Source: a virus. Taken from it: DNA of 39,940 bases. The notes beneath the pieces were generated by a model, which worked only from the letters and a program-made list of their open reading frames with translations, did no database searches and was not told where the DNA came from. Of this stretch, positions 1,702-39,940 are shown piece after piece (position 1 is the first letter of the stretch; every line of letters starts with the position of its first letter). Location of the stretch: positions 1 through 39,940 of IMG/VR virus record IMGVR_UViG_3300043395_002914; one strand, written 5' to 3'. Position numbers and translations under genes: made by a program.

Positions 1702-2580
1702 ATGAGCATCTCGTTTCACACAGTCAATCAAACCCGCGTTCAACGTTTCGGCAAGGGCGCGTCAATCCTTCGCAGCAACTCGCCGATTTCGGACGATCAA
1801 ATTCGGGCCGTTGCTCCGTCCATCTTCGCGGAGGGAAAGCACGCGAGCCGGTCGGATCGTTATAGCTACATCCCGACAAGTGAAGTTTTGAGCGGACTCC
1901 GCCGGGAAGGGTATCAACCTTTCGCCGTTTACCAGGGCGGAAGCGGCGATAATGAAAAGCGCAATTATACAAAGCACATGCTCCGCCTGCGGCATGAGTC
2001 CGTTGCAACTCCGGGCGTGGGTCAGACATTCCGCGAGATCGTTTTGATTAACGCTCACGACGGCACAAGCTCCTATCAACTCATGGCCGGAATTTTCCGC
2101 CTGGTCTGCTCCAATGGAATGGTTGTCGGCGACGGCACGATTGAACAAGTGCGCGTCAAACATTCCGGGGATGTCATTCCGTCAGTCATCGAAGGGTGCA
2201 ATCATATCCTGGCCAGGCTGCCGGAAGCCTCGGAAGCGGTGGCGGAAATGAATGCGCTGCAACTGAGCGCGCCGGAACAGCAAGCGTTCGCGGCGGCCGC
2301 GCTCCAGCTCCGTTATGATTCCGGGGAAGCTCCGATTCAAAGCGCGGAATTGCTCACACTCAAGCGCCGGGAAGATTCCGCTCCGACCTTGTGGAATACG
2401 TTAAATACCGTCCAGGAAAACGTGATCCGCGGCGGCCTGTCTTACGTCCAGCGCGATGAACGCGGCCGGCGCGTGGCCAGGCGTCAAACGCGGGAAGTGC
2501 GCGGCATTGATCAAAATACGGCCATCAACCGCGCGCTGTGGACTCTCGCGGAGGAAATGAAGCGCCTGAAAGCCGCATAA
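1702..2580 (+). CDS. DUF932 family protein
   Basis: This 292-residue protein matches the DUF932 (phage/plasmid-like, YfjQ/YafZ-type) family in length and pattern. It has an N-terminal YIPTSEVLSGLRREGYQPF segment, then the hallmark core HMLRLRHES, REIVLINAHDGTSSYQL and FRLVCSNGMVVGD, and a helical C-terminus ending WTLAEEMKRLKAA. Members are common on plasmids and phages. Their biochemical role is not established, and an anti-restriction role has been proposed for some. It is the first gene of a rightward accessory block, and a large hairpin follows the stop codon directly. The start is the ATG after TAATACA, with no SD close by. Confidence 0.85.
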   Translation: MSISFHTVNQTRVQRFGKGASILRSNSPISDDQIRAVAPSIFAEGKHASRSDRYSYIPTSEVLSGLRREGYQPFAVYQGGSGDNEKRNYTKHMLRLRHESVATPGVGQTFREIVLINAHDGTSSYQLMAGIFRLVCSNGMVVGDGTIEQVRVKHSGDVIPSVIEGCNHILARLPEASEAVAEMNALQLSAPEQQAFAAAALQLRYDSGEAPIQSAELLTLKRREDSAPTLWNTLNTVQENVIRGGLSYVQRDERGRRVARRQTREVRGIDQNTAINRALWTLAEEMKRLKAA

Positions 2581-5343: not shown

Positions 5344-5602
5344 GCTACCCGCACTGCTACACCGTAGTTATTCACGCAAGCAAGCGAAAACAGCGGTATA
5401 AAATGCGATTTTGCTACACCAAACAAATGACGCATCAGAGAAACACGGAATCACGCCCAAACCCTCCAGAGTAGCACCGCGCTGGCTCGTCATGATTTGT
5501 AATCATCAGGTCGCCGGTTCAACTCCGGCTGCTGGCTCCCTCTGTTAAACGAGGGGTTTGGGTAGCATGGCTGTGGATGTCATGCTACGCGGTTTGCTAC
5601 CT
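5343..5602. other. attP region: tRNA-Thr(TGT) 3' half core with seven TGCTAC arm-type sites
   Basis: 5491-5537 folds as the 3' half of a tRNA. It has an anticodon loop TTTGTAA (5496-5502, anticodon TGT, Thr) in an ATGA/TCAT stem and a T-arm GCCGG-TTCAACT-CCGGC (5513-5529). The acceptor 3' strand TGCTGGC follows (5530-5536), then T and CC. No matching 5' half lies upstream, as expected when a phage restores a host tRNA on integration. Around it are seven copies of TGCTAC: plus strand at 5343, 5355, 5412, 5583, 5595; minus strand at 5471, 5562. The pair at 5562-5569 and 5581-5588 forms an 8-bp inverted repeat. These look like integrase arm sites flanking the core. Confidence 0.82.
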
Positions 5603-8600
5603 GCGAAATTGTTCTGAGTCTTTGCGCATCTGCTCTCTCACGCGGGCTTTCGTTGTGCTGTCGGGGTCGTTTAGAAGCTGCTCCATGCCGATATTGTAAA
5701 CGGCTTTTTCCCACGCCTTCAAAACCTGGTATCGCTGATTCTGCTGCGGCGTGCGAAGATTTCCTCGGCTTTCGAGGTAGGTGAACTCTTCTCTGAGCGT
5801 CCGCACTTCCGCCGGCAGCGCAAGCCGTTCGTTAGCGCCCGGCATGCGCTTGTTTTTCTGCGCGGCGTCCTGCTGCTGTCTGTATCCGTAATCGGTCACT
5901 TTCAGCATGCCGTTTATTACGGGCGTGTTGTCGATGAGGATTTCCGTCGTGGTTTCGGATCGTGGGTTGTAGCGGATGAACGAGTTGACGCCCGTTTGCC
6001 CAACAGTCCACGCAAGCATGGATTTCACAGCTTCCGAGCCACCGGCGAGGTGTTCGTCGTCGCTGAGGATGTGGCGTCCGCGGAACTCGTCGTAAGGATT
6101 CTGGCCGGTGAGAAAGGTTTTCCATCCGTCGCCGATTTTAATCAGCGGCGAAACGCCCGGCACGTCGGCATCGACGACGCCCAAACTTGCGGCGATGCTG
6201 CTGCTCACGTCGGGCGCGCTCGTGGTCGCGTTCATTTCCTGCACCTGCGGGCCAAATGCGCCGGCCTTTGCGAGTCGCGTGGCGGCATTGGAAAGCAGGT
6301 TGTCAAACATCCCGGTGACAAGCCGGTCGGTCGGGTCTTTCGGGATTCGCAAATAAGTAACCTTGCCCTCGGCGTTCACTTCGCTTGCGCCGGTGTAGCC
6401 TACCGGGATGACGTCGTAATTCTTCCGGTCGTGGTCGCCGATGCCGTCGAGAAGTCGCTTGATTCCTGCACCAAGCAAACCAAGCCCGCCGGCAATCGTA
6501 ATCATGCGCGGAACTCCGGAAACCAACGCCCAACGCATCCACCACGCCGCCGCGCTCGTGCCTGCCTTGCCCGGCTGCGAAGTCCGCTTCCAGCCTTTGC
6601 TGGCGAGCTTTGCATCGGTCGCCCAAGCCTTCGTCCAGATATTGAAAAACGGGAAGATTGCGCCGGGTATGTTTGCGTGTTTTCCCTTCCGTCCAAAGTT
6701 CGGAGTCCCTACCGCGTTGCGCGCAAATGCTGCCGCGTCGGTCGGATTCCATCCCAGCACGCGCAGCCGCTGGTAGGTGTCCACCTTGCCAATCAGCTCG
6801 TTAATGCGGCCGGCGGTCTGGATCGTGCGAAGCACTTTGCCGATGACGGGCATCTGGCTCGGCATCCAGCGGCTTTGCTCATCGGCGGGAAGCAATCCAT
6901 GCGCCTGCAAAATCCTGTCAAACGCATTATCCACCACGCCCGCGGTTGCGCTGAATGTCGCCTCGCCGGGCGTGATTGCGAGATTGTCGAGCATTTCCGC
7001 GATGATGGGCATTTGCTCGCCGCGCTTCACCAGGGCGCGCACCGCATCGAGCGCGGGATTCTCGCCGATTTGCTTTACCAGCGGGAGCTGCCGCAGCACC
7101 GCGCCCCATCCGATTCCCATCGGTCGCGTGAGAAGATTGCGCCGGATGTCGCGAATCGGGTTCGTCACCAACTGGAAAATCGGGTTAAACGTAATGAACA
7201 GGGGATAGAAAACTTTGCGGAACGGCACCGAAAGCAGCTCAATAATGGCATCAAGGAGAGGCACCGGTGTATTATCGAACATCATGGCCACTTCGCGCGG
7301 CACGTTATACCAAACCATGTTTCCGCGCTCGCGTAGTGCAATCTGCGCCTGCCCTGGCTCCCTCGGCGGCACCGGGGAAGTGCGGCCGTCTGCACTCTTG
7401 CGCGTTTCTGCGAGCCGGATTTCCGCGCTGAAGCTCTGCTTCATGAGATCCACCGTGGCCAATTTCAACCGCTGAAATTGAATCGCCCGCTGCAACGTGA
7501 GCACTTTCAAAACCGTGGACAGAAACGGCGATGCGATGTCCTTCATCGTGCCGGTCTGCTGCGAGATTCCCGCCGGCACGTAGGTATCGATATACTCCAG
7601 CGGGATGAACGCCGCGTAGTGGTCGCGGTTCGCTTCGATGAGCGCCATTTGCTCATCGGTAAACAGCCCGATTTTGTGAGCCTCGCGCATTTCGGCGAAA
7701 ACCTCGTCGTGAAATTTCTGCACGGCCGCCTCTAAGAGCGTCTGCCGTTTGAGTCCGTTGCGCAGTCGCTCGGCAAGCAGCGCCTGGCGCGCCGTTACCG
7801 CTGTGTGTCCGGCCGGGTTGGCGATGACAGAGCGGCCCGACGTGGCAAAACCCATGTCCTTTGCCTGCCGTTCGCTGAGCTTGTAGGATTCATTCGCGAT
7901 GCGGTCGAAGAACAAATGCGCTCCCAGGTCGTCGGGCGTGAATCCGGCATCTTGCAGAGGCTTCAATACCGTTCTGTCCATCCGCTCCAGCCATCGCCAA
8001 TGCTCGTTTCTCGCCAGCGGATGCGAATCAAACAGCGTCTCCACAAGCAGCGCGGCGGGCGTCGGGCCTGCGTCGGCGGCGCGGTCGCGTATCGGCGCGT
8101 ATTGGTCAAAGAATGCCTGTTTCAGCATCGCCATGCGTCCGCGGAAACCGGCGAATCGCTGCTTGCGTTCCTCAAACTTCCGCAAAAACGCTTCCTCTCC
8201 GGCCGCCATCATTTCATCGATGCGCGCGCGTCGGTCCGCCTGGCGCGTGAGGAATGGCTGTTTCAGCCATGCCTGCAATTCAAACAGCGCCGCCTTTACC
8301 TCCGGCTTCGCGTCGAGCCCGCGGAAGAAGTTGCTGAAAAACTTCGGCGCAATGCGCTTGGCCGTGGCCGGCGAATTGAAAAGCACGGAAATAAAATCCG
8401 CGTACAGCTCCACGCCGCTTTCCCTGTATCGGATGTAATCCTTCGTTGCCGTGGCGCGGTCAATCGGCTTCCAGTGCTCGGTGAGTGCGATCAGCTCGGC
8501 GCGGAACTCTTTGTTTGTCGGTCCCGTCGAAGTGTATCGGTCTTTGAGGAAATTACGGAGCGAATGAATCCGCCCCCAAAGGTTGCCGCGTTTCAGCGTT

Positions 8601-11600
8601 TGCTGCGGCAGGTAGTCAACCAGGTGGCCGATTTCGTGAGCCATTACTTTTGTGGCAAGCTCCGGGTCGCGGAAGATCGCGGGATTCAAGCGCACCATGC
8701 CCTTGCCAATTCCTACAAACTGGCCAAGCGCCTTGCTCATGTTTTTGATGAACAGCTCGTTTCCAGTCAGCTCCTTGTAAAGCTCGTAAAGCTCCGGCAT
8801 TTCAACCGGCTTGATGTCCGGCAGTCCGGCAAGCGGCACCTTTGCATACGCGCTGCCGGAAACAGTAAACACCGGCGATGCCGGCCCGGCGTCGTTTGTG
8901 GCTCGTGGCGCGGCCGGTGTGGCAACGCTCGCCTGCACCTTCGGCTTTGCTCCGCCCTCGCTCGCGCTGGCCAGTCCTTTGTTGATGAAATGATTCACGG
9001 CGCGAATCACTGCGTCCCCGGCCGTCTCCTGGCGTCCTCCTAGCAGGTCGCCAATCTGCGCCTGGTCGGCCTGCCAGTTTCGCACGGTGCGATCAATCAG
9101 CCGGAACAGCGTCGCGGCATTGGCAATGGTCGGCTCCGGGATTGGCCGGCCCTTCGCATCCGCTACCACTGCGGCCTGCAAACCCTGCGCGACAACGCGC
9201 GAGACGATGGAAGCCGGATCAAACTCCGTTTGCCGGGCGACGGTATCCAGTGCGGTCTGGATCGTGGTCGCTCCAGATTTTAACACGTTTACAAACGTGC
9301 GCGCGACGGCATCCGCGGCCGTGTTGCCGTCCTCGCCAATCGCGCGCAACCGTAGCAGCGCCGGCACGGCGGCATCGAGCAAGCCGCGCGTGGTCGTGCC
9401 TGCGCTGCGGGCGTCCATCCGCACCTCTGCGAGTGCGGGCGCGCGGAATGCCGCATTTGCAAGTAATCGGATCGTGTAGTCCTGGGCGGCCGCGGGATTC
9501 TCGGCCAGCGAGCCGGCAAGATTGCGGTCCACCGTGCCGGCCTTAATCAGTCCGCGCACAAACTCCTGGGCGTCGGCCGGCGCAATATCCATGGCCATTC
9601 CCTCCAGGGCGGCCGGTGCGATGTTCTGCGCGTCAATCTCGGCGCGCTTCGCGTGCGCCTGCACCATGCCCGGCGACGGGTTGAGCATGTCCACGATTCC
9701 CTGCAACCGCTCGCGCTCGCCCGGCTGGCGTAAATCGAATGTTCCCAGGTCGCGCTGCAATTCGGCATCCGGTGAGTCGGTCGGTGCGAGTCCAAAGTTC
9801 GCCGCCTTCGCGTTCTCCAGCTTCCGCAATTCCGCGCGCTTCTCCGGCGGCAGATTTGCGATTGCCCATCCGCGATTGTTTCCGCCAAGCGTCGTGCGCG
9901 TTGCCGTGCCGTCCTCGCCGATGATGGTCGCGGCCATCCGCGGCCCGGTGGATGCGTCCGGCGAGTCGGTGACGTGCCGGCGCGGATCAAAATTGTTCCG
10001 GGTATCAAGCTGCTTGTCCCGTTCCTCCGGCTGCGAGTAGTCGCGCGTATTCTCCAGCGGGTAGGCGGGATTTGGCCCCATCATTTCCCCCGCGTGCGAA
10101 GTCTGCGTCTCGCTTGTGTTTGCCCAAACATACCGCGCCGGGAACTGCGCGCCGCGCGCGCCGAAAACCACCGTCTCCGCGCCCGGCACAACGCCGCCCT
10201 TCGGCACCGTGATGGCCGCTCCAGGTGCCGCCGGCGCGGGTGTCATCGCCGCGGCCGCCGCGGGTGCGGCCGGTGCAGGCGTGCCGATGCCGGCGTAAGG
10301 GTCTGCGCCGATAACACCCGCCGGCTTTGCCTTCGCGGTCGTGGTCACTTCCGTAATCGGTCGCGAGAAACTGAGCATCTGCCGCGCCGATTGCTCCAGC
10401 TCTGCGGGCACCTTCCCGGCCGCCGCGAGGTCATCCAGTGCATTCACGGCCTGATTGTAAACAAGCGATTCCTCCCGGCTGAGCGGCTTCACTCCATCGG
10501 GAAGCACTCCATTCGGGCTGGCCTTTGCGCGCTCCATTACGATTCCGCGCTTAACGATTTCCTCCACCTTGGCCGGGCCGTATTCGCGAAACTTCACGCT
10601 ATGGCCGGCAAGCAGTGCGGAAAGCGTCGCGGTCGTGGCGAGCTGCTCCGGGGAAAATTCCTTTTGCAGTCCGGCCGCCATCATTCCGCCCTGCACCGCG
10701 GTATCCGTCGCCGCGCCGATGCCAGCGGCAGCTCCGACCGTCTTGGCCACAAACCCGGCCGCCGCCTTCTTCCCGCTGTCCGCCGCCACCATCTTCGTCG
10801 CGTCGGCGAGCTTCCCGATTGCAGCCGGTGCCGTCACTGCAAACGCGGCAATTTCTCCAGCCTGCGAAATGCGCGGCTCCAGCGCGCCGGCCGCGGTGAA
10901 TGTCCGCAACGTTTCGGAATGCTTTGCGATGCGTTCCTCAATCGCCCGCTCTGCTGCGCTCGTGACAAGCGCGCCCGCGACACTTCCGACAAATGCGCCC
11001 GCGGCCCGTGCCTGTGGTCCGCCCGGCACGCGCGCGCCAATCGCCGCGCCGCCCTGTGCGCCTGCGAGCATTACGCCGCCGCGCCCTGCGCCAAGTAGCA
11101 GCGCCTTCGTTTTCGGGTCTTTCCCGGCATCCTCCAGGAGTTGCACGCGCTCCTTTACCGCCGTCTCTGCCGCGGCTGCATCCTTGTCGAGCGTCGCCGC
11201 CTGCTCTGCGGTCAAAACGCCGGCCTTCACTGCCTGCTGCACGCCCTTCTTGAAACGATACGGGTCCAGCTCCACGCGGCCATTGTTCACCCGGTAGGCT
11301 TCGGTCAGCGGGCCAAATTCCATCGAATCGGGCTCGCGCTTCATGCTGAACACTTCGCCGCCCTTTGCCTGCAACGCCAGGGCGCGTGCGGTTTCCGGGT
11401 TGTTGCTTGTGTCGCCGGGGCGCATCCCGATTTCGTAATAAACCCGCGCGGCTCCGGGCTCGGAAACATCCGCCATGCGGCCCTCTTTGAAAATGTCGCT
11501 CGCCAGTTTTCCGGCCGTCTCCAGCTTCCTTAGCGTTCTGTCCGTGTGCTCGCCGAAAATTGCGAGCTGCTCGCTGTCGAGCTTTGCCAGCTCTGCGGCC

Positions 11601-11788
11601 GGCCGGACTATCGCGACGCTTTCAACGGGATAATCGGAATCGGGCGCGGGGAGTCGCCTTGGCGGTTGTGATTCCGGCGCGCCGATGTCTGCATACGGGT
11701 CCGCCGGTGCATCGACGGTGCCGATTCCTGCATACGGGTCCGCGGCATCGACAGTCCCGATGCCGGCATAAGGGTCTTGTGGGTCCAT
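5597..11788 (-). CDS. 2063-aa polyvalent internal virion (ejection) protein with zinc-peptidase motif
   Basis: This is the largest gene. The N-terminus carries three DPYAGIG-type repeats, and a fourth lies near residue 500. Residues ~228-380 are Gly/Ala-rich and hydrophobic, suitable for membrane insertion. Residues ~600-820 resemble ParB/DdrB-like parts of phage polyvalent proteins (TLGGNNRGWAIANLP; RSAGTTTRGLLDAAVPALLR). A zincin motif HEIGH lies at 1051-1055, with a likely third ligand E1127 in ELYADF. A stretch near 1525-1555 (FNPIFQLVTNPIRDIRRNLL) matches the LPD38-type region. Such giants sit inside podovirus heads and are ejected with the DNA. It is the last gene of the late operon, and its stop overlaps an attP arm site. 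Domain limits are approximate. Confidence 0.8.
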   Translation of the reverse strand: MDPQDPYAGIGTVDAADPYAGIGTVDAPADPYADIGAPESQPPRRLPAPDSDYPVESVAIVRPAAELAKLDSEQLAIFGEHTDRTLRKLETAGKLASDIFKEGRMADVSEPGAARVYYEIGMRPGDTSNNPETARALALQAKGGEVFSMKREPDSMEFGPLTEAYRVNNGRVELDPYRFKKGVQQAVKAGVLTAEQAATLDKDAAAAETAVKERVQLLEDAGKDPKTKALLLGAGRGGVMLAGAQGGAAIGARVPGGPQARAAGAFVGSVAGALVTSAAERAIEERIAKHSETLRTFTAAGALEPRISQAGEIAAFAVTAPAAIGKLADATKMVAADSGKKAAAGFVAKTVGAAAGIGAATDTAVQGGMMAAGLQKEFSPEQLATTATLSALLAGHSVKFREYGPAKVEEIVKRGIVMERAKASPNGVLPDGVKPLSREESLVYNQAVNALDDLAAAGKVPAELEQSARQMLSFSRPITEVTTTAKAKPAGVIGADPYAGIGTPAPAAPAAAAAMTPAPAAPGAAITVPKGGVVPGAETVVFGARGAQFPARYVWANTSETQTSHAGEMMGPNPAYPLENTRDYSQPEERDKQLDTRNNFDPRRHVTDSPDASTGPRMAATIIGEDGTATRTTLGGNNRGWAIANLPPEKRAELRKLENAKAANFGLAPTDSPDAELQRDLGTFDLRQPGERERLQGIVDMLNPSPGMVQAHAKRAEIDAQNIAPAALEGMAMDIAPADAQEFVRGLIKAGTVDRNLAGSLAENPAAAQDYTIRLLANAAFRAPALAEVRMDARSAGTTTRGLLDAAVPALLRLRAIGEDGNTAADAVARTFVNVLKSGATTIQTALDTVARQTEFDPASIVSRVVAQGLQAAVVADAKGRPIPEPTIANAATLFRLIDRTVRNWQADQAQIGDLLGGRQETAGDAVIRAVNHFINKGLASASEGGAKPKVQASVATPAAPRATNDAGPASPVFTVSGSAYAKVPLAGLPDIKPVEMPELYELYKELTGNELFIKNMSKALGQFVGIGKGMVRLNPAIFRDPELATKVMAHEIGHLVDYLPQQTLKRGNLWGRIHSLRNFLKDRYTSTGPTNKEFRAELIALTEHWKPIDRATATKDYIRYRESGVELYADFISVLFNSPATAKRIAPKFFSNFFRGLDAKPEVKAALFELQAWLKQPFLTRQADRRARIDEMMAAGEEAFLRKFEERKQRFAGFRGRMAMLKQAFFDQYAPIRDRAADAGPTPAALLVETLFDSHPLARNEHWRWLERMDRTVLKPLQDAGFTPDDLGAHLFFDRIANESYKLSERQAKDMGFATSGRSVIANPAGHTAVTARQALLAERLRNGLKRQTLLEAAVQKFHDEVFAEMREAHKIGLFTDEQMALIEANRDHYAAFIPLEYIDTYVPAGISQQTGTMKDIASPFLSTVLKVLTLQRAIQFQRLKLATVDLMKQSFSAEIRLAETRKSADGRTSPVPPREPGQAQIALRERGNMVWYNVPREVAMMFDNTPVPLLDAIIELLSVPFRKVFYPLFITFNPIFQLVTNPIRDIRRNLLTRPMGIGWGAVLRQLPLVKQIGENPALDAVRALVKRGEQMPIIAEMLDNLAITPGEATFSATAGVVDNAFDRILQAHGLLPADEQSRWMPSQMPVIGKVLRTIQTAGRINELIGKVDTYQRLRVLGWNPTDAAAFARNAVGTPNFGRKGKHANIPGAIFPFFNIWTKAWATDAKLASKGWKRTSQPGKAGTSAAAWWMRWALVSGVPRMITIAGGLGLLGAGIKRLLDGIGDHDRKNYDVIPVGYTGASEVNAEGKVTYLRIPKDPTDRLVTGMFDNLLSNAATRLAKAGAFGPQVQEMNATTSAPDVSSSIAASLGVVDADVPGVSPLIKIGDGWKTFLTGQNPYDEFRGRHILSDDEHLAGGSEAVKSMLAWTVGQTGVNSFIRYNPRSETTTEILIDNTPVINGMLKVTDYGYRQQQDAAQKNKRMPGANERLALPAEVRTLREEFTYLESRGNLRTPQQNQRYQVLKAWEKAVYNIGMEQLLNDPDSTTKARVREQMRKDSEQFRR

Positions 11789-24838: not shown

Positions 24839-27024
24839 GGCTGTGTGGGTTGAGCTTTGTTCCACTCCAGCGGCTTCACTCCACGCAGTCCGGTGCCCTG
24901 GTTCTGCTGCTGCTGCATTCCAAACTCCAGGTGTTTCACAAACCGCTGGAACAGCATCGCGCTATCCGGCTGATTTTTGAGGCGCTCGGCGTTGGCCGGG
25001 TTTGCGAGGATTTCGTTAAGCGTGTCGAGCTGGAGCGTGTAATCGTCATTCCCGACCGGCGGCATGTCGGGCTCAATGCCGGCGAGGATGTTGGTCCATG
25101 CGGTCTTGACCCGTGCGCGCTGTGCCTCGGCGGCCTGTTCGGGCGGTTGGATGAGTCCGCGGGCAAGCTCGGGGTCGAGGATGTTTGCCGCCATTTCGAG
25201 AAAGCGCGGGATGTTGACCGCGCCGGTGCGGTCGCTGGCGATGATGAGTTCCTTGTAAGCCCGGATGCGTGCGACGGCGTTTTCAAAATCAAGGTCCATT
25301 GCGTTGAAGGAAAGGCTCACGGAATACTGGCCGCGGATGTCGTTGCGGCTGACTTTGAAGATGCTGGTGGGATCGTCCGCAATCGCCTGCGCGGTGGTTT
25401 CCGGCAGATACTGCTGGGCCAGTTTCAGCGTGAGCTGAACCAACTCCGCGCATTGCGTGAGAAAGGATGATGCCTTGTCTTTCAACGCGAGCTGCCACAG
25501 CGGCGCGGGCACGGTGTCCGATACGCGCGCAAAATAGCCGTCCACTTCGCGCTCGGTGTATTGGGTCACGAGTGTATTGTCGGTCGGGTTCTGCGGAATC
25601 GGCAGCCAGCGGAGATTCTCGCCTTTCTTCTCGGAGAGCTGCACGGCCGGGCCAAGCTCCAGCGCCGTCTTTGCCAGCGCGCCGGTGCGCACGATGGGCG
25701 GCAGATTCGTCACGTCGTTGCGGTTCATGCGGCCGTCCCGCGTGTGTTTCAGCTCATCCTGCCAATGCTTGCCGACTTCGGAAATCGACCGGCTTTCCAC
25801 GATGGCGTGTTCGTTCGTCTCGCGCTGGAATTGCACAAACGGGAACATCCCGGAATCGTCGGGAATGATGTCGTGAAAAGCGTATTGGTCTTCGCCGGCT
25901 TCGTTCTCCGGGCGCATCGGGCAAAACACGGTGAGATACATGACGGGAAGCTGGTGCTCCTCGTGCGTGCCGAGTGTGTAAAACCAAACGACTTCGATCA
26001 AATGCTGCTTCTCGGTCGGGTTGTTCCACGCCGGCCGGTGCGGTCCTTTGCCCGCTTTGTCGAGCAACGTTGCGCGGCTGCCGTCGTCGAACGATTGCCC
26101 GCGGCCGTGCTCGCAAACATCCTCCACCCATTTCTCATCCCATCCATTTGCAAGCGCCGTCTCGCGCACCTGCGCCTCGGTGAGCCACATGCGGCGCGCA
26201 ATCCATCGCGAATCCTGCACCGTCTCCATGGTCGCAGGAAAGAAAACATCCACCCACGGACGCAACGCACGCCAGCGCGGGAGCGAGGAAACAACCTCCA
26301 CGTCGGGCACCTCCGTCTCGCCGTTCTCGCGCAGCTCGCGGAGGATGCGGCCGGCGGCGGGCTTTTTGAGAATCGGCGAAAGCCCAAGCAGCAACTGCAC
26401 CGCCTGCTCGTCGCGGGTCGGGTCCATGAGGATGTCCATAAACTCCAGCGGTGCCATGTCGCCCGCTTCGCCGGCGGCTTTGGCTGCGGCGAGCATTCCG
26501 GCAAACACAAGTTTCCGCGAAGTGAGCCGGGGCTTTTCCTCCCACCATGCGCCCATGATGGAATAACCATACTGCTCCTGCCAGCGCGCCGCGATTTGAA
26601 GCTGACGCCGCGCCATGCCTTTCAGGTGGTTTTGGAAAAGCCAGCGTAGCAGCGTGGTCACGGTCTTTGCATTCGCCGTGTCCTTCATCGGGTTGAGTGC
26701 GGACGCCCGTAATTGCGCTGCGTCCCATGTGGCCATCATGATGCGCACCTGCTCCTGGATAAGTCCATCCACCATGAAATGCCGCGTGTCCCATGCGCCC
26801 TCCCATGGCCACGCGCGGCCTTTGCCTTTCAGCTCATCCCATGCGCGGCCGTCGTCGCTTTGTCCCGGCCAGAGCGCGTTGGCGGTGTCGTAATCGCGCA
26901 CCTGTTGCGCACGGTAAACGAGCGCGTCATTCAGCGCGTCGGTGAGTTCTTTGGTGAGGTCTGCGGGACAGACTTCTTTTCCGAGCATGGTTTGCTCGCG
27001 GGCTTCGTCTTCGGTGTGTGTCAT
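24835..27024 (-). CDS. portal protein
   Basis: The protein has 729 residues from ATG 27024, which overlaps the upstream stop (ATGA). The longer in-frame extension to 27249 is rejected because it overlaps a coupled gene. The portal is the dodecameric ring through which DNA enters and leaves the head. Support comes from size, position between terminase and scaffold, and the early WPWEGAWDTR segment (~71-80). That segment resembles the YPWPGAsD signature of podovirus portals. A long helical middle, a beta-rich wing and a Gln-rich C-terminus (GMQQQQNQGTG) follow. Confidence is high for role, moderate for subfamily. Confidence 0.8.
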   Translation of the reverse strand: MTHTEDEAREQTMLGKEVCPADLTKELTDALNDALVYRAQQVRDYDTANALWPGQSDDGRAWDELKGKGRAWPWEGAWDTRHFMVDGLIQEQVRIMMATWDAAQLRASALNPMKDTANAKTVTTLLRWLFQNHLKGMARRQLQIAARWQEQYGYSIMGAWWEEKPRLTSRKLVFAGMLAAAKAAGEAGDMAPLEFMDILMDPTRDEQAVQLLLGLSPILKKPAAGRILRELRENGETEVPDVEVVSSLPRWRALRPWVDVFFPATMETVQDSRWIARRMWLTEAQVRETALANGWDEKWVEDVCEHGRGQSFDDGSRATLLDKAGKGPHRPAWNNPTEKQHLIEVVWFYTLGTHEEHQLPVMYLTVFCPMRPENEAGEDQYAFHDIIPDDSGMFPFVQFQRETNEHAIVESRSISEVGKHWQDELKHTRDGRMNRNDVTNLPPIVRTGALAKTALELGPAVQLSEKKGENLRWLPIPQNPTDNTLVTQYTEREVDGYFARVSDTVPAPLWQLALKDKASSFLTQCAELVQLTLKLAQQYLPETTAQAIADDPTSIFKVSRNDIRGQYSVSLSFNAMDLDFENAVARIRAYKELIIASDRTGAVNIPRFLEMAANILDPELARGLIQPPEQAAEAQRARVKTAWTNILAGIEPDMPPVGNDDYTLQLDTLNEILANPANAERLKNQPDSAMLFQRFVKHLEFGMQQQQNQGTGLRGVKPLEWNKAQPTQP

Positions 27025-30483: not shown

Positions 30484-30668
30484 ATCTCCGGTAGTTCGTT
30501 CACTTGTTGATCCGTCATTTCGCGCAGTTCGATAGTGATGCGCTCGCCGGCGCGGCCGCGCTCGTTGGCGTAGGTTTGCAGCGTTTCCCAAAGGTCATCC
30601 TTGTTCGCGCAAACGCACCAGGTTTGCCCGTCTGCCGCCTTTGGCTCCACTACCAGGCGCAAGCTCAT
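30480..30668 (-). CDS. hypothetical protein, 62 aa
   Basis: A short protein coupled on both sides by ATGA overlaps. It has strand-helix-strand form (LRLVVEPKAADGQTWCVCAN, DDLWETLQTYANERGRAGER, then ITIELREMTDQQVNELPEI). No family is recognised. Confidence 0.65.
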   Translation of the reverse strand: MSLRLVVEPKAADGQTWCVCANKDDLWETLQTYANERGRAGERITIELREMTDQQVNELPEI

Positions 30669-32695
30669 TTGACTCCTTTCCGTGCCTTTTCGAGTTCCGC
30701 TTTCAGATCGACAATCAGCCAGTTGCAAACCTCGTGCGCGGTGTCATCCCAGCAGGTGATGCCAAGCTGTCCGTCGTAGCCGGGGCATGTGTGGGTGAGC
30801 ATCAGCGCCCATAGCGCCACAAGCTCCAGAGGCTCGCACGTGGCCGCAAATTGCGGCACCATTTCGCGGTGGCTGGCCTTGTCCTGGAGCTTTAGTTTTT
30901 TCGGCTCCATGTTCAGCAGCTTTGCGCAGTCGCGGGCGATGTCGTCGGGCAGGCGGTCGGCAAGGGTGCGGACTGCGAGCCGGAATGGGACTGTGACGAT
31001 GGCCGCTGCGTGGTCGGGAGTGATTGCGCAGACAATCGCCGCCTGCACCCGTGCCACGATTTCTTTGCCCTCCGTTACTTTTTTGCGGCGTTCCTTCTCG
31101 CGGTCGTCGTGGCCGGTGTCGGGCTTTTCCTCCTTGATGAGCCCTTTGTCCTTGAGCAGCTTTTTTACGAGCGCCGTGGGGAGAATGCGGTAAATGCTGC
31201 CGGTCGCGGGAGATTGCGCGAAGATGAGGTCTTTCGTGGTGAAGCCGTTCACGAGCAAATCGGCGAGCGGCCGTTTTTTCGCGTCGAAGCTCAGCCGTGA
31301 AATGTATCCGCTGTCGGAAAGGTCGCAGTATTTCCAGTCGAGGTTATCGTAGCTGCCATACTGGCCAAGCCCGGCGGCTTTTGCCTGCGCGGCGGTCCAG
31401 ACGGTGCCGCCGTCCTTCCGGTGGTTCTCAGCATCGCGCTTGAATTGCTCCGCTGCCTTGTCTTTGAGGCATGACGGCTTGCCGCAAATGTCTCCGCGCT
31501 GGCCCGTGAAATCCTCCTGATTGCCGCTTCGGAACGGGCATTTCTCGCACGAAAGCGGCTTGCCTTCGGGTCCGGGCAAAGTGGCATCCTCGGGGTCAAA
31601 CTCCACGTTTTTCAGCTCGGCGGTGTATCGCTCGCGGATGACGTTGCTTGCCGTCTCGTCGGTCCAGCGGTCGCGGATGGCGTTCTCAATGGCTTTCTTC
31701 TGGCTGTCCTTGTCGAAAATGCCGGCCAGTTTGACCGCGACGGAAACGGAGAGCTGTTTTGAGTCGAGCGCCTCAATGGCGAGCTTTGGCAGCCCGGCCA
31801 GGCGCGCCCATGCGTAGGACTGGCTTTTGCCTCCAAGCGCAAACTTGTGGCCAAGGCTTTTCGACGGGTCGGCTTCGTTCCAATAACTCCAGCCGTGTTT
31901 TCTGCAAAGCCGGTCATAGTTGCGAATGCGCTCGCTCGGCGTCAGGTCGGTGCGCTGGCAGTTGTCCAGGTCGGCCAGCTCTGCGGCGAGTTCGCGGGAA
32001 ATCTGCCCGTAATCGCGCACCGGAACGGTAATCATCCCCAGGTGCAGCGCGACGCAACGGCGGGAATTGCCGCCCCAGGGAATATGCGTGAACTGCGCCG
32101 GAATCTTGTGCTCTGCGCGCTCGGAATCGCTAATGCGCCGGATGTTGAGCGGGTTGATGATTCCTTTCGTGCGGATGCTTTCCACAACGGCCGGCGGAAT
32201 GTCTTTGATGTGCAGCTCATGCCCGTTGTTGCGGGCGTTCTCGTAATCGTAAAAAAGCTGCGCGAGCGGGAACGCGTCGTTTGTCGTGACTGCGAGATCA
32301 AGCGGTTTTGGTGCAGGTGCCTGCACTTTGGCCGGCGTCGGTTTCGTTTGCGGCTTGGCCGCGGGTTTTGTGGTTTTCATGGTTTTTGGTTTGTTTGTTT
32401 TGCTGGTTGGTTTTTTGGTTTTCATAGAATCGTCCGCGGTGGCCGCGGGTTGATGCACGCCGGCGTTGATGCCTCCGGGTGTTAGTTCGCCATTGCCGGC
32501 GGCCCATGCATGAGCGGCCATGCTTTCGGCTTCGTCCGCTGTCTCCGCCTCCGCGGTGTATATCCACGCCACCGTTGGCGAGCGGCGCGCTTCTACTTGC
32601 TGCGTCACGTCAAAGGGCTCGCGTGAAATAATCGGCCGCTCATTGCGGCGGGCGGCAAACGTCGTGAGATAGGCAAGCCAGTGTCGTTTATTCAT
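30665..32695 (-). CDS. ParB-like (Spo0J/RepB type) DNA-binding protein with zinc module
   Basis: The protein has 676 residues from ATG 32695 (ATGA overlap). A Lys/Thr/Pro-rich linker (~90-130) precedes a ParB N-terminal domain around 150-250: IKDIPPAVVESIRTKGIINP, then HIPWGGNSRRCVALHLG. A helical DNA-binding part follows (DLTPSERIRNYDRLCRKHG, SQSYAWARLAGLPKLAIEAL). A Cys cluster near 383-410 (CEKCP, CGKPSC) should bind zinc. ParB folds are CTPases that slide on DNA, or regulators. No ParA partner is present here, so regulation or replication roles are more likely than partition. Confidence 0.75.
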   Translation of the reverse strand: MNKRHWLAYLTTFAARRNERPIISREPFDVTQQVEARRSPTVAWIYTAEAETADEAESMAAHAWAAGNGELTPGGINAGVHQPAATADDSMKTKKPTSKTNKPKTMKTTKPAAKPQTKPTPAKVQAPAPKPLDLAVTTNDAFPLAQLFYDYENARNNGHELHIKDIPPAVVESIRTKGIINPLNIRRISDSERAEHKIPAQFTHIPWGGNSRRCVALHLGMITVPVRDYGQISRELAAELADLDNCQRTDLTPSERIRNYDRLCRKHGWSYWNEADPSKSLGHKFALGGKSQSYAWARLAGLPKLAIEALDSKQLSVSVAVKLAGIFDKDSQKKAIENAIRDRWTDETASNVIRERYTAELKNVEFDPEDATLPGPEGKPLSCEKCPFRSGNQEDFTGQRGDICGKPSCLKDKAAEQFKRDAENHRKDGGTVWTAAQAKAAGLGQYGSYDNLDWKYCDLSDSGYISRLSFDAKKRPLADLLVNGFTTKDLIFAQSPATGSIYRILPTALVKKLLKDKGLIKEEKPDTGHDDREKERRKKVTEGKEIVARVQAAIVCAITPDHAAAIVTVPFRLAVRTLADRLPDDIARDCAKLLNMEPKKLKLQDKASHREMVPQFAATCEPLELVALWALMLTHTCPGYDGQLGITCWDDTAHEVCNWLIVDLKAELEKARKGVK

Positions 32696-32997
32696 GCTGC
32701 TTCCTCCCCGGTGCGGTCGTGCTGGTGAGTCCTGGCTTTCCGCGGGCATTCGCGGCCGTGCCAGTCCGGGTTTCCGTAGGCGCGTGGTGTTGCAATTCCT
32801 CCGTATAGCGCCGCCAGTTTTTTTGCCTCCGCCTCTCCGCCTTCCCATCGCTGGAATTTCTTTTCCACCCATTGCGCCGTTGCTCCTACTGCGAGCCATC
32901 GAGTCGGGCGAATCGGCGCGTCCGGGTTATCCGGCTGAATGCAGGCGGCGAGGGGCTCTGTCACGCACCAGGGGCCAAGCGGCGGCAAGTCTTTCAT
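32692..32997 (-). CDS. hypothetical protein, 101 aa
   Basis: ATG 32997 overlaps the upstream stop (ATGA). Trp-rich segments (PLGPWCVTEPLAACIQPD, QWVEKKFQRWEGGEAEAKKL) and a basic C-terminus (RECPRKARTHQHDRTG) suggest a small nucleic-acid-associated protein. No family is recognised. Confidence 0.6.
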   Translation of the reverse strand: MKDLPPLGPWCVTEPLAACIQPDNPDAPIRPTRWLAVGATAQWVEKKFQRWEGGEAEAKKLAALYGGIATPRAYGNPDWHGRECPRKARTHQHDRTGEEAA

Positions 32998-33584
32998 GGC
33001 TTGGGTGGGCGCGGGATATAGAACCATTGCCCGGTTAAGTTGAGAACGTAAGTTTCGTGGCCGTCAGGATAGCGGGCGCTTAGCTCCGGGTCCGTGTCCT
33101 GGTCGCGGTAAAGCTCAATGATTCCAGCGGCGTGATTTTCGCTTTCGCGAAACCAGTAAAAACCGGGGAAAATGGGGCGGCGATTGCTCCAGCATCGAAT
33201 GCCGGAACGGAACCTTAGCAAATTTGCCTCAATGGCTTCCTCGCGGCATTCGCTGTCCAGGGTGTCGAATGGCCCGGAAATTCTGGCCATGATTCCAAGC
33301 CATAGGTCATCGCTTGCGTTGTCGTCGCCAAGTATTCCCTGGCCCTGCTCCAGATCGCGCACGCGCTGCGCGTTTGCGATGACGGCCGCGCGCGTGGCAA
33401 TGCGCGCCTCCAGCAATTTGCGCGCGGTGAGCGTGAGCCATGCCGTATCCTCAATGCTGGTGAAACCGCTGCGCTCCTGTTCCTCCCGGATGGAGTCGAG
33501 CCGCCTTAGCGTTTTCTGTTCGTCCTCGGGCCTGAGCCATTCCATTTCCGTGCCAGGCACGCCAAAGGGTGCGGTGTCGCTCAT
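32994..33584 (-). CDS. hypothetical protein, 196 aa
   Basis: The start is at ATG 33584, overlapping the DHH gene stop. The helical N-terminal half (PEDEQKTLRRLDSIREEQER, LTLTARKLLEARIATRAAVI) is followed by a mixed domain with FPGFYWFRESENHAAGIIEL, then YVLNLTGQWFYIP. It lies directly after the DHH phosphoesterase. No family is recognised. Confidence 0.6.
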   Translation of the reverse strand: MSDTAPFGVPGTEMEWLRPEDEQKTLRRLDSIREEQERSGFTSIEDTAWLTLTARKLLEARIATRAAVIANAQRVRDLEQGQGILGDDNASDDLWLGIMARISGPFDTLDSECREEAIEANLLRFRSGIRCWSNRRPIFPGFYWFRESENHAAGIIELYRDQDTDPELSARYPDGHETYVLNLTGQWFYIPRPPKP

Positions 33585-34600
33585 ACGCTTTCCTCCGTGG
33601 TAAAGCCGGCCGCTTCCGGTTGTCCGCCGCCGCCGTTGGCGAGGGCGATGCGGAGGGCGGTATTGTCGCCCTTGCGGGAGCGGATGGAGTGAACCACGCG
33701 CACGACGCCGTTTAGAGTTGCGGACGGATAGAGCGGCTTGCGGTAGCGCACGACGGCCGCGGGCATCCCCTGGAATTTCTCCAGCAATGCGTGCGCGATT
33801 TCGCTTTGCCACACCGCACTCTCGACCGTCGGCAGCCATTCGAGCGTGCCAGTTTCCGCAGTGCGGTATGGCGCGAAGTAGGCGTTTTTGATGATGCTCT
33901 CGACGGCGGCTTGGCGGCAGCGCAGCGCGATGGTGCCCTCGCTAATCACATCGGCCCAGTCATCCTCCGGGCGGCACGGGTCGGCGTAGCTGGTGATGAT
34001 GTGGTCGAGGCTCTCAAACCATTCCCGCTCGCCCCATTTGTGCGGAATCAGGAACAGCCCTTCGTGCAATGCCTGGCACTGGAATTTTCGGGTGACGTCA
34101 TACGCCGGGTCTTTTTCATGCCGCCACAGATCGCGGTCTGCGATGAGTTGGAGCGGGTAGGGGATTTTTTTCGGCCAGCTCGCCGTGGCTTCCTGGGAGT
34201 AATTGCGGAAGTACGTCCATGCCAGCTCCACGCCGGCGAGCGCGCGGTTGAAGCGGTATCCGAAATCGCATTGCGTATCCGCGGCGAGCCACTCGCCGAC
34301 CGTGCCAAGCGCCGTTTCCACCGGGCCGGCGTGGTGGTCCAGGATCACCAATTCGCTGCACCGTTTGGCCAGGCCAAGCAGGCCGGCAGCGATTTCATCG
34401 GCTCCGTTGGTTTTGTGCGGCCATGAAAAATCCACGATGAAAACCCGCGAGCCCTGCGGGATTTCCGGGAATGGCTCGCCGTACTGCACGGAATGATATT
34501 CGGCGGCGTCGCCGAAAATTCGCCAGGCGCAATAGGCGCTGGCCACTCCGTCGTGGTCGCGGTGGAATAGAACGAGGATGTTTTTGTCGCTGGTGTTCAT
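33581..34600 (-). CDS. DHH family phosphoesterase
   Basis: The protein has 339 residues. The DHH fold is recognised by HRDHDGVAS (D15, D17), IVDFSW (D57) and the namesake LDHHAG (D88-H90), then a further Asp in ADRDLW. The C-terminal DHHA1 motif reads GGGGQPEAAGF, where the usual His of GGGH is Gln (Q327). The family hydrolyses short RNA, cyclic di-nucleotides or polyphosphate with Mn. The changed His may alter substrate handling. The gene is coupled to a 26-aa membrane miniprotein upstream. A role in nucleotide signalling or RNA turnover during infection is inference. Confidence 0.8.
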   Translation of the reverse strand: MNTSDKNILVLFHRDHDGVASAYCAWRIFGDAAEYHSVQYGEPFPEIPQGSRVFIVDFSWPHKTNGADEIAAGLLGLAKRCSELVILDHHAGPVETALGTVGEWLAADTQCDFGYRFNRALAGVELAWTYFRNYSQEATASWPKKIPYPLQLIADRDLWRHEKDPAYDVTRKFQCQALHEGLFLIPHKWGEREWFESLDHIITSYADPCRPEDDWADVISEGTIALRCRQAAVESIIKNAYFAPYRTAETGTLEWLPTVESAVWQSEIAHALLEKFQGMPAAVVRYRKPLYPSATLNGVVRVVHSIRSRKGDNTALRIALANGGGGQPEAAGFTTEESV

Positions 34601-35118: not shown

Positions 35119-35309
35119 AGGTTTTCGATGGTTGGTTTTGTGCTGATTGCCGGTTCACGCGCCGGCCGCGTTTCGCGGATTTGCCGCAGAAATTCTTCAA
35201 ATGTTTGAGGGTGCGCGATGGAGCGCGCGACGCCGGCGGCCGCCCTTTCTTTTTGCTCGCGGTAGATCGCGCGGAGCATGGCAACGGTGATTGATAGTTG
35301 CGCCTTCAT
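35115..35309 (-). CDS. small helical protein, 64 aa
   Basis: Coupled at both ends by ATGA overlaps, directly after the helicase gene. Mostly helical and basic (ITVAMLRAIYREQKERAAAG, TFEEFLRQIRETRPAREPAI). No family is recognised; a helicase partner is possible from position only. Confidence 0.6.
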   Translation of the reverse strand: MKAQLSITVAMLRAIYREQKERAAAGVARSIAHPQTFEEFLRQIRETRPAREPAISTKPTIENL

Positions 35310-36922
35310 GCCTCGCCGCTCCCTTCTCCGTGTTTCGGGCCGCTATTGTCCGCGGCGTTTGCCTGGCGCTTTGCGGGGTTGTTTGAGTAAAGCTCCTTCG
35401 TCCATCCCTCAAACCAGCATTGCTCTCCGTGATACCAGCATTTTGCGTGGCCGGTGCTGCCGGCGCGCTGTTTGAGAATGTGAAGCTCTGCGTATTTGGC
35501 CGCGTCGTCCTTGTCGCAATCGCGCCAGCCTCCGCTATCGTTCGGCACCTGGCCGATTCGCTCCATGAGCTTGGCCTTTTGCGCGTCGGTCTTGGCGTAG
35601 TATCCGGGCCGGACGGGCGCTAAAACAACGTCGGCATCCTGTTCCAGTTGCCCGCACTCGCGCATATCCGACAACAGCGGCACGTGGCCCGGCCGGTCGT
35701 CCACGTCGCGGTTGAGCTGCGCGGCCACGATGAGCTTTACTTTGAACGCGCGCGCAATCGCCTTCAATCCGCGCGAGACTTCGGAGACTTCCTCCAGGCG
35801 GTTGCGCTTTGCCTTGTCGCTGCTGCTGGTGATTAGCTGCGCGTAGTCAATGACGATGACTTTCACGCCTAGCTGCTCCACCGCGTAGCGGCATTTGGTC
35901 GTGAGCTGCTGGATCGAGATTGCGGGCGTGTCGTCAATCCAGAGCTTGATTGGCTTCTGGCCGGAACTTTCCGGCGGCACGTATTCCGACAGCTTCACCA
36001 TTGCTTCATTGATCGCGCGGTCGAATGCCTCGCCTCTGGCCATGAATCCGTCAGCAAATCGCTTGATGCTGATGCCGGTGATTTGGGCAACAAGCCGGTC
36101 GCCAAGCAACGCCTCCGACATTTCCACGGAGAAAATTGCCACGGCCAGCGGGTTTGCGTGGTCCGGGTTTTTGCTCAACGAGTTCCACCGCGCCATGTGC
36201 AACGCCGCCTGGAATGCCAGCGCCGTTTTTCCCATGCTTGGCCGGGCGGCAATCAGCCAAAGTTCCTGATCCTGGATTCCGTCCGTCATGCGGTCGATGT
36301 CCGCAATCCCGATGCACCCGCCGGAAACGCGGCCGCGCATTTCACTCCGCTCCATGAGCCGGCGCATTCCGTCCTGGAGGATTTTGCGAATCGGCACGAA
36401 TTTGTTGGCGGAAGCGGCACCGGTCGCCGTGAGAACGCACGCGCGCTTTTGCAGTTCGTCGGCCAGGGCCGTGGCGTTTTCCGTCTCGCTATACGCGCGG
36501 GCGGCAATCTCGGTGCAGTCAATGATGATCTGCCGGGCCAGCCTTTTTTCTGTAACTATGTCGATGTAATACGCGGCATTCGCCGCGGTCGGCAAAAACG
36601 TGTAGAGCGATGTGAGAAAGCCCGCGCCGCCGATTCCATCGAGTTTCTCCCGGCTGCGTAGCGTGTCGGTGAGGGTGATGAAATCAACCAGCTTCTCCGC
36701 TTCAACCAACTCCACGATCAGCCGGTAAATGGTTTCGTGCGCGGGAATGTGGAAACAGTCCGGGGTGACGCCTTTTTCCTGACAGAGATTCAGCACGGGC
36801 CGGGGCGCGAGAAGGAGCGAGGAAAGAACGCCCTGCTCGGCTTCCGGGCTTTGCGGTAGCATGCGGTGAACGTCCGGCAGGTATCCGGCTTTGCGTGCGA
36901 GGTTGGCGGATGCTTCGGACAT
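35306..36922 (-). CDS. DnaB-type replicative helicase
   Basis: The protein has 538 residues from ATG 36922. The N-terminal DnaB domain (MLPQSPEAEQGVLSSLLLAP, then FHIPAHETIYRLIVELVEAE) is followed by a RecA-like motor. The motor has Walker A ARPSMGKTA (K232), a Walker B-like VIVIDYAQL (D359) and the downstream IVAAQLNRDVDDRPGHVP and LLSDMRECGQLEQDADVV motifs. It unwinds the fork 5' to 3' and is normally loaded by an initiator or loader. The replication initiator with internal iterons lies immediately upstream (stop 36925), so the two form a replication pair. The C-terminal extension (~480-538) is low complexity. Confidence 0.9.
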   Translation of the reverse strand: MSEASANLARKAGYLPDVHRMLPQSPEAEQGVLSSLLLAPRPVLNLCQEKGVTPDCFHIPAHETIYRLIVELVEAEKLVDFITLTDTLRSREKLDGIGGAGFLTSLYTFLPTAANAAYYIDIVTEKRLARQIIIDCTEIAARAYSETENATALADELQKRACVLTATGAASANKFVPIRKILQDGMRRLMERSEMRGRVSGGCIGIADIDRMTDGIQDQELWLIAARPSMGKTALAFQAALHMARWNSLSKNPDHANPLAVAIFSVEMSEALLGDRLVAQITGISIKRFADGFMARGEAFDRAINEAMVKLSEYVPPESSGQKPIKLWIDDTPAISIQQLTTKCRYAVEQLGVKVIVIDYAQLITSSSDKAKRNRLEEVSEVSRGLKAIARAFKVKLIVAAQLNRDVDDRPGHVPLLSDMRECGQLEQDADVVLAPVRPGYYAKTDAQKAKLMERIGQVPNDSGGWRDCDKDDAAKYAELHILKQRAGSTGHAKCWYHGEQCWFEGWTKELYSNNPAKRQANAADNSGPKHGEGSGEA

Positions 36923-36924
36923 GG

Positions 36925-38037
36925 CTAGGCGAGAAGTTGCTGACGGATGTGCTCGGGTAGCTCGGTCCACACGGCCGGGATTTCGGCGTGTGGCCAGCGT
37001 TTCACGGCGCGGGCTCGCCAGTCGTCCGCGGGCGGGGTGGTCATGCTGCCGCGACTGCCGGCGGTGCTGGTGTCCGCACTGCTGCCGTAACGGGCGAGGG
37101 CGATGTCGAACGCAATGGGGAGCTTTTCGGCGAGCTTCTCCATGTTGATGAGCCAGTCGTAGCGGAGGTCTTTCGGCGTATCTGCGCCGGCGTCGAGCCG
37201 GGCTTTGCGCATGGCTGCCAGGGCCGCCCATTTTTTTTCATCGGCCGGAATGACTCCGTGACTGACGTGCTCGATGAGCGAGCCAAAAGCGATGGTGCCG
37301 ATGTCGCGGTTGGCACCAAACAGCGTGCGAATGCGCAAGGCCGCCTCGGCAGCGAGTGCCGCCGGCTTCACCAACCCGCCCCCTTCTTTTTTTTCTGCCT
37401 TTTCCGTCAACGAAGTGACGGCATCCGCATTGTCCCCTTTGGGGACGATAGGGGTATCCTTCTCTTCTCTTACCTTCTCTTCTCTTTCTTTACTTGCTCC
37501 CACGTTCTCCCGACTTGTCGGGAGATTGTCGGGACATTCTCCAGTGTCGTGTAAGTCGCTCGAATCCTGCTTTGATTCGGGAGAAGTCGGGAGATTGTCG
37601 GGAGAAAGCCGGATGTTGTCGGGAGAGGATTCGCGCATCCAATTTATTTCCGGCGATGTCAGAACGGCAATCGATAGCTCGAAATCCTCGGCATTCATGC
37701 CCGTCATGTCGGCCATGTCCTCGGTCGTGTATGGGCCGTCCTCGTCGGCAAGGTAGCCTCGTGCGGCGCTTTTTGCAGCCAGTTGCGCGATGAGCACCCA
37801 ACAGGCAAATACCACCGCCTTTTTTTCGTTCCGCATAATTCGCCGAAAGCCTTTCCCGTCGTGCTTTGTCGGCAGCAAAACGAACGGCAGCCGTGCGAGC
37901 TTCCGGGTGTGGGAGTTTTCAAAGTGCTCTGGCCAGTCGATGATTGACCAAAGCGGCCGCTCCAGCGCAGGGCCGTGCCATTTCTTCGCCAGCCGGGCAA
38001 TCGCCGCGGCCGGGTTGTGCAGTGTGTTAGTGGCCAT
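36925..38037 (-). CDS. replication initiator with internal iterons
   Basis: The protein has 370 residues. The start ATG 38037 overlaps the upstream stop as TAATG. A winged-helix-like N-terminal part (~55-135: RRIMRNEKKAVVFACWVLIA, then TTEDMADMTGMNAEDFELSI) fits phage initiators that bind origin repeats. Residues ~138-178 are encoded by the iteron cluster and read as SPDNLPTSP-type repeats. An acidic/basic linker (EREEKVREEKDTP) and a helical C-terminal domain (EKKWAALAAMRKARLDAGAD), which could contact helicase, follow. Architecture and the adjacent DnaB gene parallel lambda O. Identity is by analogy. Confidence 0.7.
   Translation of the reverse strand: MATNTLHNPAAAIARLAKKWHGPALERPLWSIIDWPEHFENSHTRKLARLPFVLLPTKHDGKGFRRIMRNEKKAVVFACWVLIAQLAAKSAARGYLADEDGPYTTEDMADMTGMNAEDFELSIAVLTSPEINWMRESSPDNIRLSPDNLPTSPESKQDSSDLHDTGECPDNLPTSRENVGASKEREEKVREEKDTPIVPKGDNADAVTSLTEKAEKKEGGGLVKPAALAAEAALRIRTLFGANRDIGTIAFGSLIEHVSHGVIPADEKKWAALAAMRKARLDAGADTPKDLRYDWLINMEKLAEKLPIAFDIALARYGSSADTSTAGSRGSMTTPPADDWRARAVKRWPHAEIPAVWTELPEHIRQQLLA
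37505..37626. repeat. 11-bp iteron cluster, probable replication origin
   Basis: Perfect TTGTCGGGAGA copies lie at 37515-37525, 37595-37605 and 37616-37626. Near copies lie at 37526-37536 (TTGTCGGGACA), 37574-37584 and 37584-37594, and an inverted copy TTCTCCCGAC at 37505-37514. Spacing is mostly 11 bases, one helical turn, so copies share a face. A pyrimidine tract of CTTCTC/TTTC type (37457-37493) adjoins and could be the melting region. The cluster lies inside the initiator gene, as origins do in lambda O. Confidence 0.8.
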
Positions 38038-39778: not shown

Positions 39779-39940
39779 GCCGCTACCTCCGCAAGCGTAG
39801 CCCGGAACTCCTGCACCATCTCATCGCCGATTACCGGCGGCACCTTCACCGACCGTCCGCGCTCTGGCATCGGAAGCCGTTCCATCACCCATGCAAAAAA
39901 CGCCGCAAGCGGAAGCCCGGCAGCTTTCGCGGCCGGCTGA
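39775..39940 (-). CDS. early hypothetical protein, 3' part of the split gene
   Basis: This is the continuation of the gene starting at 360. Bases 39814-39940 duplicate 1-127, and the unique part (39775-39813) encodes the last 12 residues and TGA. The reading frame stays open throughout the repeat on both copies, which supports joining the ends. See the entry at 1-360 for the protein. Confidence 0.7.
   Translation of the reverse strand, partial: QPAAKAAGLPLAAFFAWVMERLPMPERGRSVKVPPVIGDEMVQEFRATLAEVAA
39814..39940. repeat. 127-bp terminal direct repeat, right copy
   Basis: Identical to 1-127; one copy should be removed when closing the circle. Confidence 0.95.

Follow-up and report, generated by a model that had tools for sequence, protein, structure and literature searches.

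A probable replication origin within a phage initiator gene: an iteron array adjoining an easily melted tract with a 5-bp period

Results

An initiator-like gene followed by a DnaB helicase

We analysed a stretch of viral DNA of 39,940 bp with approximately 61% G+C (IMG/VR record IMGVR_UViG_3300043395_002914, called here the window). A direct terminal repeat of 127 bp is found at positions 1-127 and 39814-39940, and the record is therefore probably a complete genome. A gene on the minus strand (36925-38037) encodes a 370-residue protein (P0001) resembling initiators or replisome organisers, with a possibly winged-helix-like N-terminal domain, a linker predicted to be disordered whose coding sequence holds the candidate origin, and a helical C-terminal part. 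The next gene in the operon (35306-36922, minus strand) encodes a DnaB-type replicative helicase of 538 residues (P0002), with matches to DnaB_C (218.8 bits, E = 1.1e-64) and to the DnaB N-terminal domain (78.6 bits, E = 4.1e-22) that are both far above the cut-off.

Several other features of the record were recorded. A DHH-family-like protein (33581-34600, minus strand; E = 1.3e-5, just below the cut-off) is encoded near the replication genes, and a ParB-like protein (TIGR00180, E = 1.1e-6, below the cut-off) at 30665-32899 on the minus strand. Tandem 8-bp GGTTTTGT-like repeats inside the ParB-like ORF (32364-32422) are among the least stable windows of the record. A DUF932 protein (1702-2580, plus strand; E = 4.4e-46) belongs to a short group of plus-strand genes at the left end, and a 2063-residue protein (5597-11788, minus strand) carries repeated DPYAGIGTVDA-like units at its N-terminus, matched by 36-bp DNA repeats at 11682-11776.

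Iterons and an unstable tract within the coding sequence

The word TTGTCGGGAGA is present at 37506-37626 in three perfect copies, three imperfect copies and one inverted copy, and on the sense strand of the gene the array reads TCTCCCGACAA. In the direction of the gene, perfect copies at 37616-37626 and 37595-37605 are followed by a copy with two mismatches (AAGTCGGGAGA, 37584-37594), a degenerate copy with three mismatches that keeps the core TCGGGAGA (37574-37584), a copy with one mismatch (37526-37536) and the third perfect copy (37515-37525), all of them on the plus strand; the inverted copy (37506-37516, minus strand) has two mismatches. Steps from start to start are 21, 11, 10, 48 and 11 bp, which correspond to one or two helical turns save for one gap. 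An earlier note, made from the sequence, had reported three perfect, at least three near and one inverted copy in a mostly 11-bp register, next to a pyrimidine tract and in a gene followed by a DnaB-type helicase. These observations were confirmed, the 48-bp gap being the exception to the register, and the pyrimidine tract proved to be the longest in the record (37457-37511, plus strand).

As a single word, TTGTCGGGAGA with up to two mismatches is not rare, since it was seen 15 times across the record against 9.4 expected. Close pairs of 9-mers in the initiator gene numbered 31. Synonymous shuffling of the gene (2000 replicates) gave 3.5 such pairs on average and never more than 18, and the repeat density of the gene was reached in 0/2000 cases. 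The array is the densest 130-bp repeat segment of the record, and no comparable repeat cluster was found elsewhere in it. The iterons lie approximately 410-525 bp into the gene, away from its start. Some are in codon phase 0 and others in phase 2, and the peptide is SPDN in one phase and LPTS in the other. Copies in two phases that specify different peptides indicate that the constraint is on the DNA.

Directly after the array in gene direction lies AGTAAAGAAAGAGAAGAGAAGGTAAGAGAAGAGAAGG (sense strand), which forms this longest pyrimidine run. The pyrimidine/purine tract with a 5-bp period at 37447-37500 (sense strand AGAAG AGAAG GTAAG AGAAG AGAAG) is a candidate unwinding element. Periodicity at lag 5 had a z-score of 4.9, and a value as high was obtained in 0 of 500 synonymous shuffles. 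Nearest-neighbour energies identified 37447-37491 as the least stable 45-bp window in the 39,940 bp, though it is coding, and this easily melted DNA adjoins the iterons. No DnaA box was found near the site, the single match in the record being at 25975. GC skew, computed as the earlier note had proposed, left 37.5 kb unmarked; the cumulative minimum fell near 15 kb, possibly confounded by the orientation of the genes there, and the skew is uninformative, speaking neither for nor against the origin reading.

The N-terminal domain is related to Phage_rep_org_N

Against Pfam, the whole 370-residue protein gave no match above the cut-off; the sole weak one was to Phage_rep_org_N (PF09681; 11.9 bits against 23.3). 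A homologue (L128) scored 17.3 bits against the same family and cut-off. Profiles were more telling. A six-member profile of the N-terminal domain aligned with Streptococcaceae members of Phage_rep_org_N over 79 columns (hhalign 93.7%, E = 1.9e-7), and a nine-member HMM gave 28.2 bits to a member of that family (L149), with reversed controls at 1.1 or below. Profile comparison thus shows the domain to be a remote homologue of Phage_rep_org_N, and the initiator-like N-terminus recognised in the earlier note finds its kin there.

No Phage_rep_O domain was detected by the Pfam scan of the protein, and the Pfam and NCBIfam scans contained no Rep_3-type domain of the kind found in iteron-plasmid Rep proteins. 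At maximum sensitivity the family profile did not report lambda O, and gave -1.1 bits to P22 gp18 and 1.8 bits to TP901-1 Rep. A lambda-O-like identity of the initiator was rejected on the lack of profile similarity to lambda O or P22 gp18.

The conserved part of the domain (YRI-DW...PTKHDGkG...W...AAK...GxLaDedGPlt; 37636-37953, minus strand), delimited by alignment, was modelled confidently by AlphaFold, with pLDDT of 85-96 over most of residues 60-140. Residues ~143-222 were predicted to form a disordered linker, which coincides exactly with the stretch encoding the candidate origin, and the C-terminal part was helical and poorly resolved. The order of structural elements in the N-terminal model is winged-helix-like. 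Its structural matches were winged helices, the best being CodY (Z 5.2, rmsd 3.0, 70 aligned residues) and the rest below 5, scores that are modest; a Foldseek search of the model against the PDB returned nothing at E < 0.001, and there were no lambda-O or DnaD structures among the re-aligned chains.

Iterons and tract recur in distant homologues

Searches of viral contigs, phages and plasmids with the whole 370-residue protein gave no relatives, and the capsid protein used as query gave none either. Relatives were reached only through hand-made DNA patterns for the PTKHDGxG motif, applied to viral contigs and followed by a profile; the first, stricter pattern had found none. This yielded eight distinct distant homologues (L129, L130, L131, L132, L133, L172, L173 and L182) with 26-36% full-length identity, and no close relative was found.

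Iterons follow the N-terminal domain in four of these genes, with sequences that differ and a step of 10-11 bp that is kept: GTCCGGAA in L129 (steps of 11 and 11 bp), CCAGCGGA in L130 (ten copies, mostly at 10-bp steps), TCGTCGCG in L172 (10 and 10 bp) and CCCCGGAG in L173 (10 and 10 bp), the last being weaker and suggestive (21/300). They were significant in the window, L129, L130 and L172, and not in L131, L132, L133 or L182. In those relatives whose iterons are clear, the codon phase rotates through all three. A 5-bp tract follows the iteron region in the window, L129, L130, L132, L133 and L172, matched in each case by no more than 8 of 500 synonymous shuffles; L182 has a 4-bp form, and the 5-bp signal of L173 is weak. 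At lag 5 the mean z over nine loci was 2.9, and at lag 10 it was 2.3; the corresponding means in 18 control ORFs were 0.2 and 0.05. In L131 (3469-3873) the reading frame ends right behind the N-terminal domain, and the non-coding DNA downstream holds CTACAGGACAGGACACGACAATACAG, a 5-bp tract (3/1000 shuffles). Retention of a tract in non-coding DNA, together with the conserved iteron spacing, indicates that selection acts on the DNA.

The tract falls in the least stable 1.6% of its gene in the window, L129, L133, L172 and L173, and also in L017, a locus described below; in L130, L132 and L182 its instability was not outstanding within the gene. We also considered the 5-mers as TnnT units of the DnaD type. 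This pattern was matched by 8/9 units in L133, 7/9 in L172 and no more than 4/9 in the window, and this reading is not claimed. In L129, L130 and L132 the gene that follows encodes DnaB, and no helicase was found adjacent to the homologue gene in L131, L133, L172, L173 or L182. In the L130 record, a ParB gene lies just beyond DnaB. Alignment of homologous initiators, the check suggested in the earlier note, showed that the position of the repeats is kept, whereas their sequence and the protein linker drift.

Other readings of the repeats

Initiators often repress their own genes, and the sites lie inside the gene, so that the iterons might be an autoregulatory operator and not an origin. We regard this as unlikely, since the sites are ~410-525 bp into the gene and border the record's least stable DNA, and since the pair of iterons and tract recurs in the homologues, in a location matching that of the origins annotated in lambda and P22.

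The repeats might instead reflect selection for an SPDN-type peptide, with the similarity in DNA being secondary; SPDN or CPDN does occur at three places in the protein. However, copies from the two codon phases specify different peptides, their spacings of 10 and 11 bp are not multiples of three, and the synonymous shuffles never reached the observed repeat density. The rotation through all three phases in relatives with clear iterons, the predicted disorder of the linker and the tract of L131 in non-coding DNA also oppose this explanation, to which we give very little credence. It is equally improbable that the locus is a decayed or secondary origin, either a start that was once the main one and has weakened, or one of a pair. 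The 48-bp gap that interrupts the array and the one degenerate copy could be read as decay, but the three perfect copies and the intact 5-bp tract argue for maintained selection, and the record holds no second cluster of this kind. A centromere for the ParB-like protein of 30665-32899 is hardly credible: that gene is present and repeats can be partition sites, but a ParB match is absent in 8 of 10 related or analogous records (several of which are fragments), in the relatives the repeats go together with the initiator gene, and DNA that melts easily would serve no evident purpose in a partition site.

Similar arrangements outside the homologue family

Viral contigs were scanned for two close copies of TTGTCGGGA, which gave 118 matches, approximately half of which may be due to chance by base composition. 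The scan reached L017, its near twin L108, and L085, in which the gene just before DnaB has an N-terminal domain unrelated to that of the window and carries CCCGACAA iterons at 11 bp, followed by a tract with a period of 5 bp (L017) or 6 bp (L085). The CCCGACAA core, at 11-bp spacing, is located at L017:4055-4074 and L085:9329-9370, and its presence in initiators with unrelated N-terminal domains may reflect convergence or shared recognition. Another match, L006, had four copies and was rejected as an initiator locus because the gene whose 3' end holds them is primase/helicase-like by eye.

Phage_rep_org_N genes of Streptococcaceae mostly contain a 6-bp tract (mean z 2.8), with 11-bp repeats in L159, L160 and L166. 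In the cyanophage Leptolyngbya phage Lbo-JY16, the gene before the helicase (L197:1774-2499) has repeats at lags 11, 12 and 23 and a 6-bp TCACCT tract, and is a candidate for another intragenic origin. All these cases (L017/L108, L085, L197 and the Streptococcaceae genes) are leads and do not constitute a survey. In ten regions around the best DnaB matches in the phage collection, a 5-bp tract was found in 0/10 of the longest upstream ORFs. In seven of the ten (L192, L194, L196 and L198-L201) a long gdpP-like gene, the same in each, precedes dnaB, and these 'phage' records look like bacterial chromosome.

Discussion

The array and the adjacent pyrimidine tract very probably constitute the replication origin of this phage, lying within the gene that encodes its own initiator. 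The earlier note had proposed a probable origin here, and that proposal is strengthened by the retention of repeats in homologues and by the adjoining DNA, the least stable in the record. The evidence comprises the repeats, which are constrained at the level of DNA, an unstable tract next to them, the order of the genes, a remote relationship to Phage_rep_org_N, and iterons and tract that persist in homologues. Iteron binding, melting, helicase loading and use of the origin in vivo are putative steps.

By analogy with lambda, where binding of O at the iterons opens a neighbouring A+T-rich region (PMC5043065), initiator binding would be followed by opening of the tract and recruitment of DnaB. 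The 370-residue protein would contact the 11-bp iterons through its N-terminal domain, for the most part from one side of the helix given their spacing of ~1 or 2 turns, and the complex would melt the tract at 37447-37500. The C-terminal part of the initiator could then bring the phage's own DnaB, the product of the next gene, to the opened strand. The interdomain linker, predicted to be disordered, seems able to accept any residues that the origin DNA happens to specify, which would allow an origin to be accommodated there.

The recurrent short-period tract is the most interesting feature of this case. No description of such a tract in phage origins was found in the open-access literature searched, which is weak evidence of absence as subscription papers are mostly outside it. 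We tentatively raise the possibility, which we hold to be doubtful, that the 5-bp tract is a distinct and so far undescribed origin element, a ladder of short units read on the melted strand that aids helicase loading and is common to initiators with otherwise unrelated N-terminal domains (the family of the 370-residue initiator, the L017 type and, in a 6-bp form, Streptococcaceae Phage_rep_org_N members, L085 and the cyanophage L197). DnaA-trios or the DnaD recognition element would be the comparators for such a ladder. In Bacillus subtilis oriC, short repeated units next to the initiator boxes are read in single-stranded form by an initiator or, in the case of DnaD and its recognition element, a helicase-loading protein (PMC10201434). 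The window resembles oriC in having short repeated units beside its candidate iterons; unlike it, oriC is chromosomal and DnaA-based, and the likeness is an analogy only. If the tract were a real loading element, phages would possess a short-unit single-strand ladder like those of bacterial chromosome origins, and the odd low-complexity peptides in these phage replication proteins (EENRIEENRVEES, TGQDRTGQD, PDN repeats) would be a by-product of origin DNA.

The analysis provides a precise origin candidate for a phage with no DNA-level relative in the collections searched. It also suggests a rule for searches: in the gene before DnaB, the disordered linker should be inspected for 10-11-bp iterons followed by a tract with a 5- or 6-bp period.

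Intragenic origins are already established in lambda, P22, TP901-1 and Tuc2009, and the window origin would join that known class. The replisome organisers of TP901-1 (ORF13) and Tuc2009 (Rep2009) reportedly bind direct repeats that lie in their own genes and act as ori (PMC8965321), as we propose for the window. TP901-1 differs in that its Rep scores only the 1.8 bits given above against the N-domain profile and its gene has no significant 5- or 11-bp period. Phage_rep_org_N (PF09681) members of Streptococcaceae prophages share with the window the remotely homologous N-terminal domain, 11-bp intragenic repeats (in the three genes named above) and a short-period tract in the same linker; in contrast, their tract is mostly of 6 bp instead of 5 bp, and the window protein lies below the Pfam cut-off.

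The earlier note had recognised the lambda O layout in the locus, and this stands as far as iterons and origin within the initiator gene are concerned. In lambda, too, the iterons lie inside initiator gene O, and a purine-rich stretch that melts easily comes after them in the same direction, but the lambda iterons measure 18-19 bp and have an internal dyad bound by O dimers (PMC5043065). The gene after O encodes the loader P and not a helicase, and the initiators are non-homologous. On profile evidence the window initiator is of a different, uncharacterised family from those of lambda and P22. In both phages, analysed as controls, the least stable stretch of the gene is at or just beyond the repeats. 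In P22, repeat periods are near 23-24 bp, with an additional 7-bp period, and gp18 has no profile similarity to the window initiator. As in the window, however, the P22 origin is annotated inside the initiator gene (18), the repeats are followed by an easily melted window, and the phage's own DnaB-like gene (12) comes next. P22, with its initiator and then its own DnaB-like helicase, is thus the exact parallel in layout, rather than lambda.
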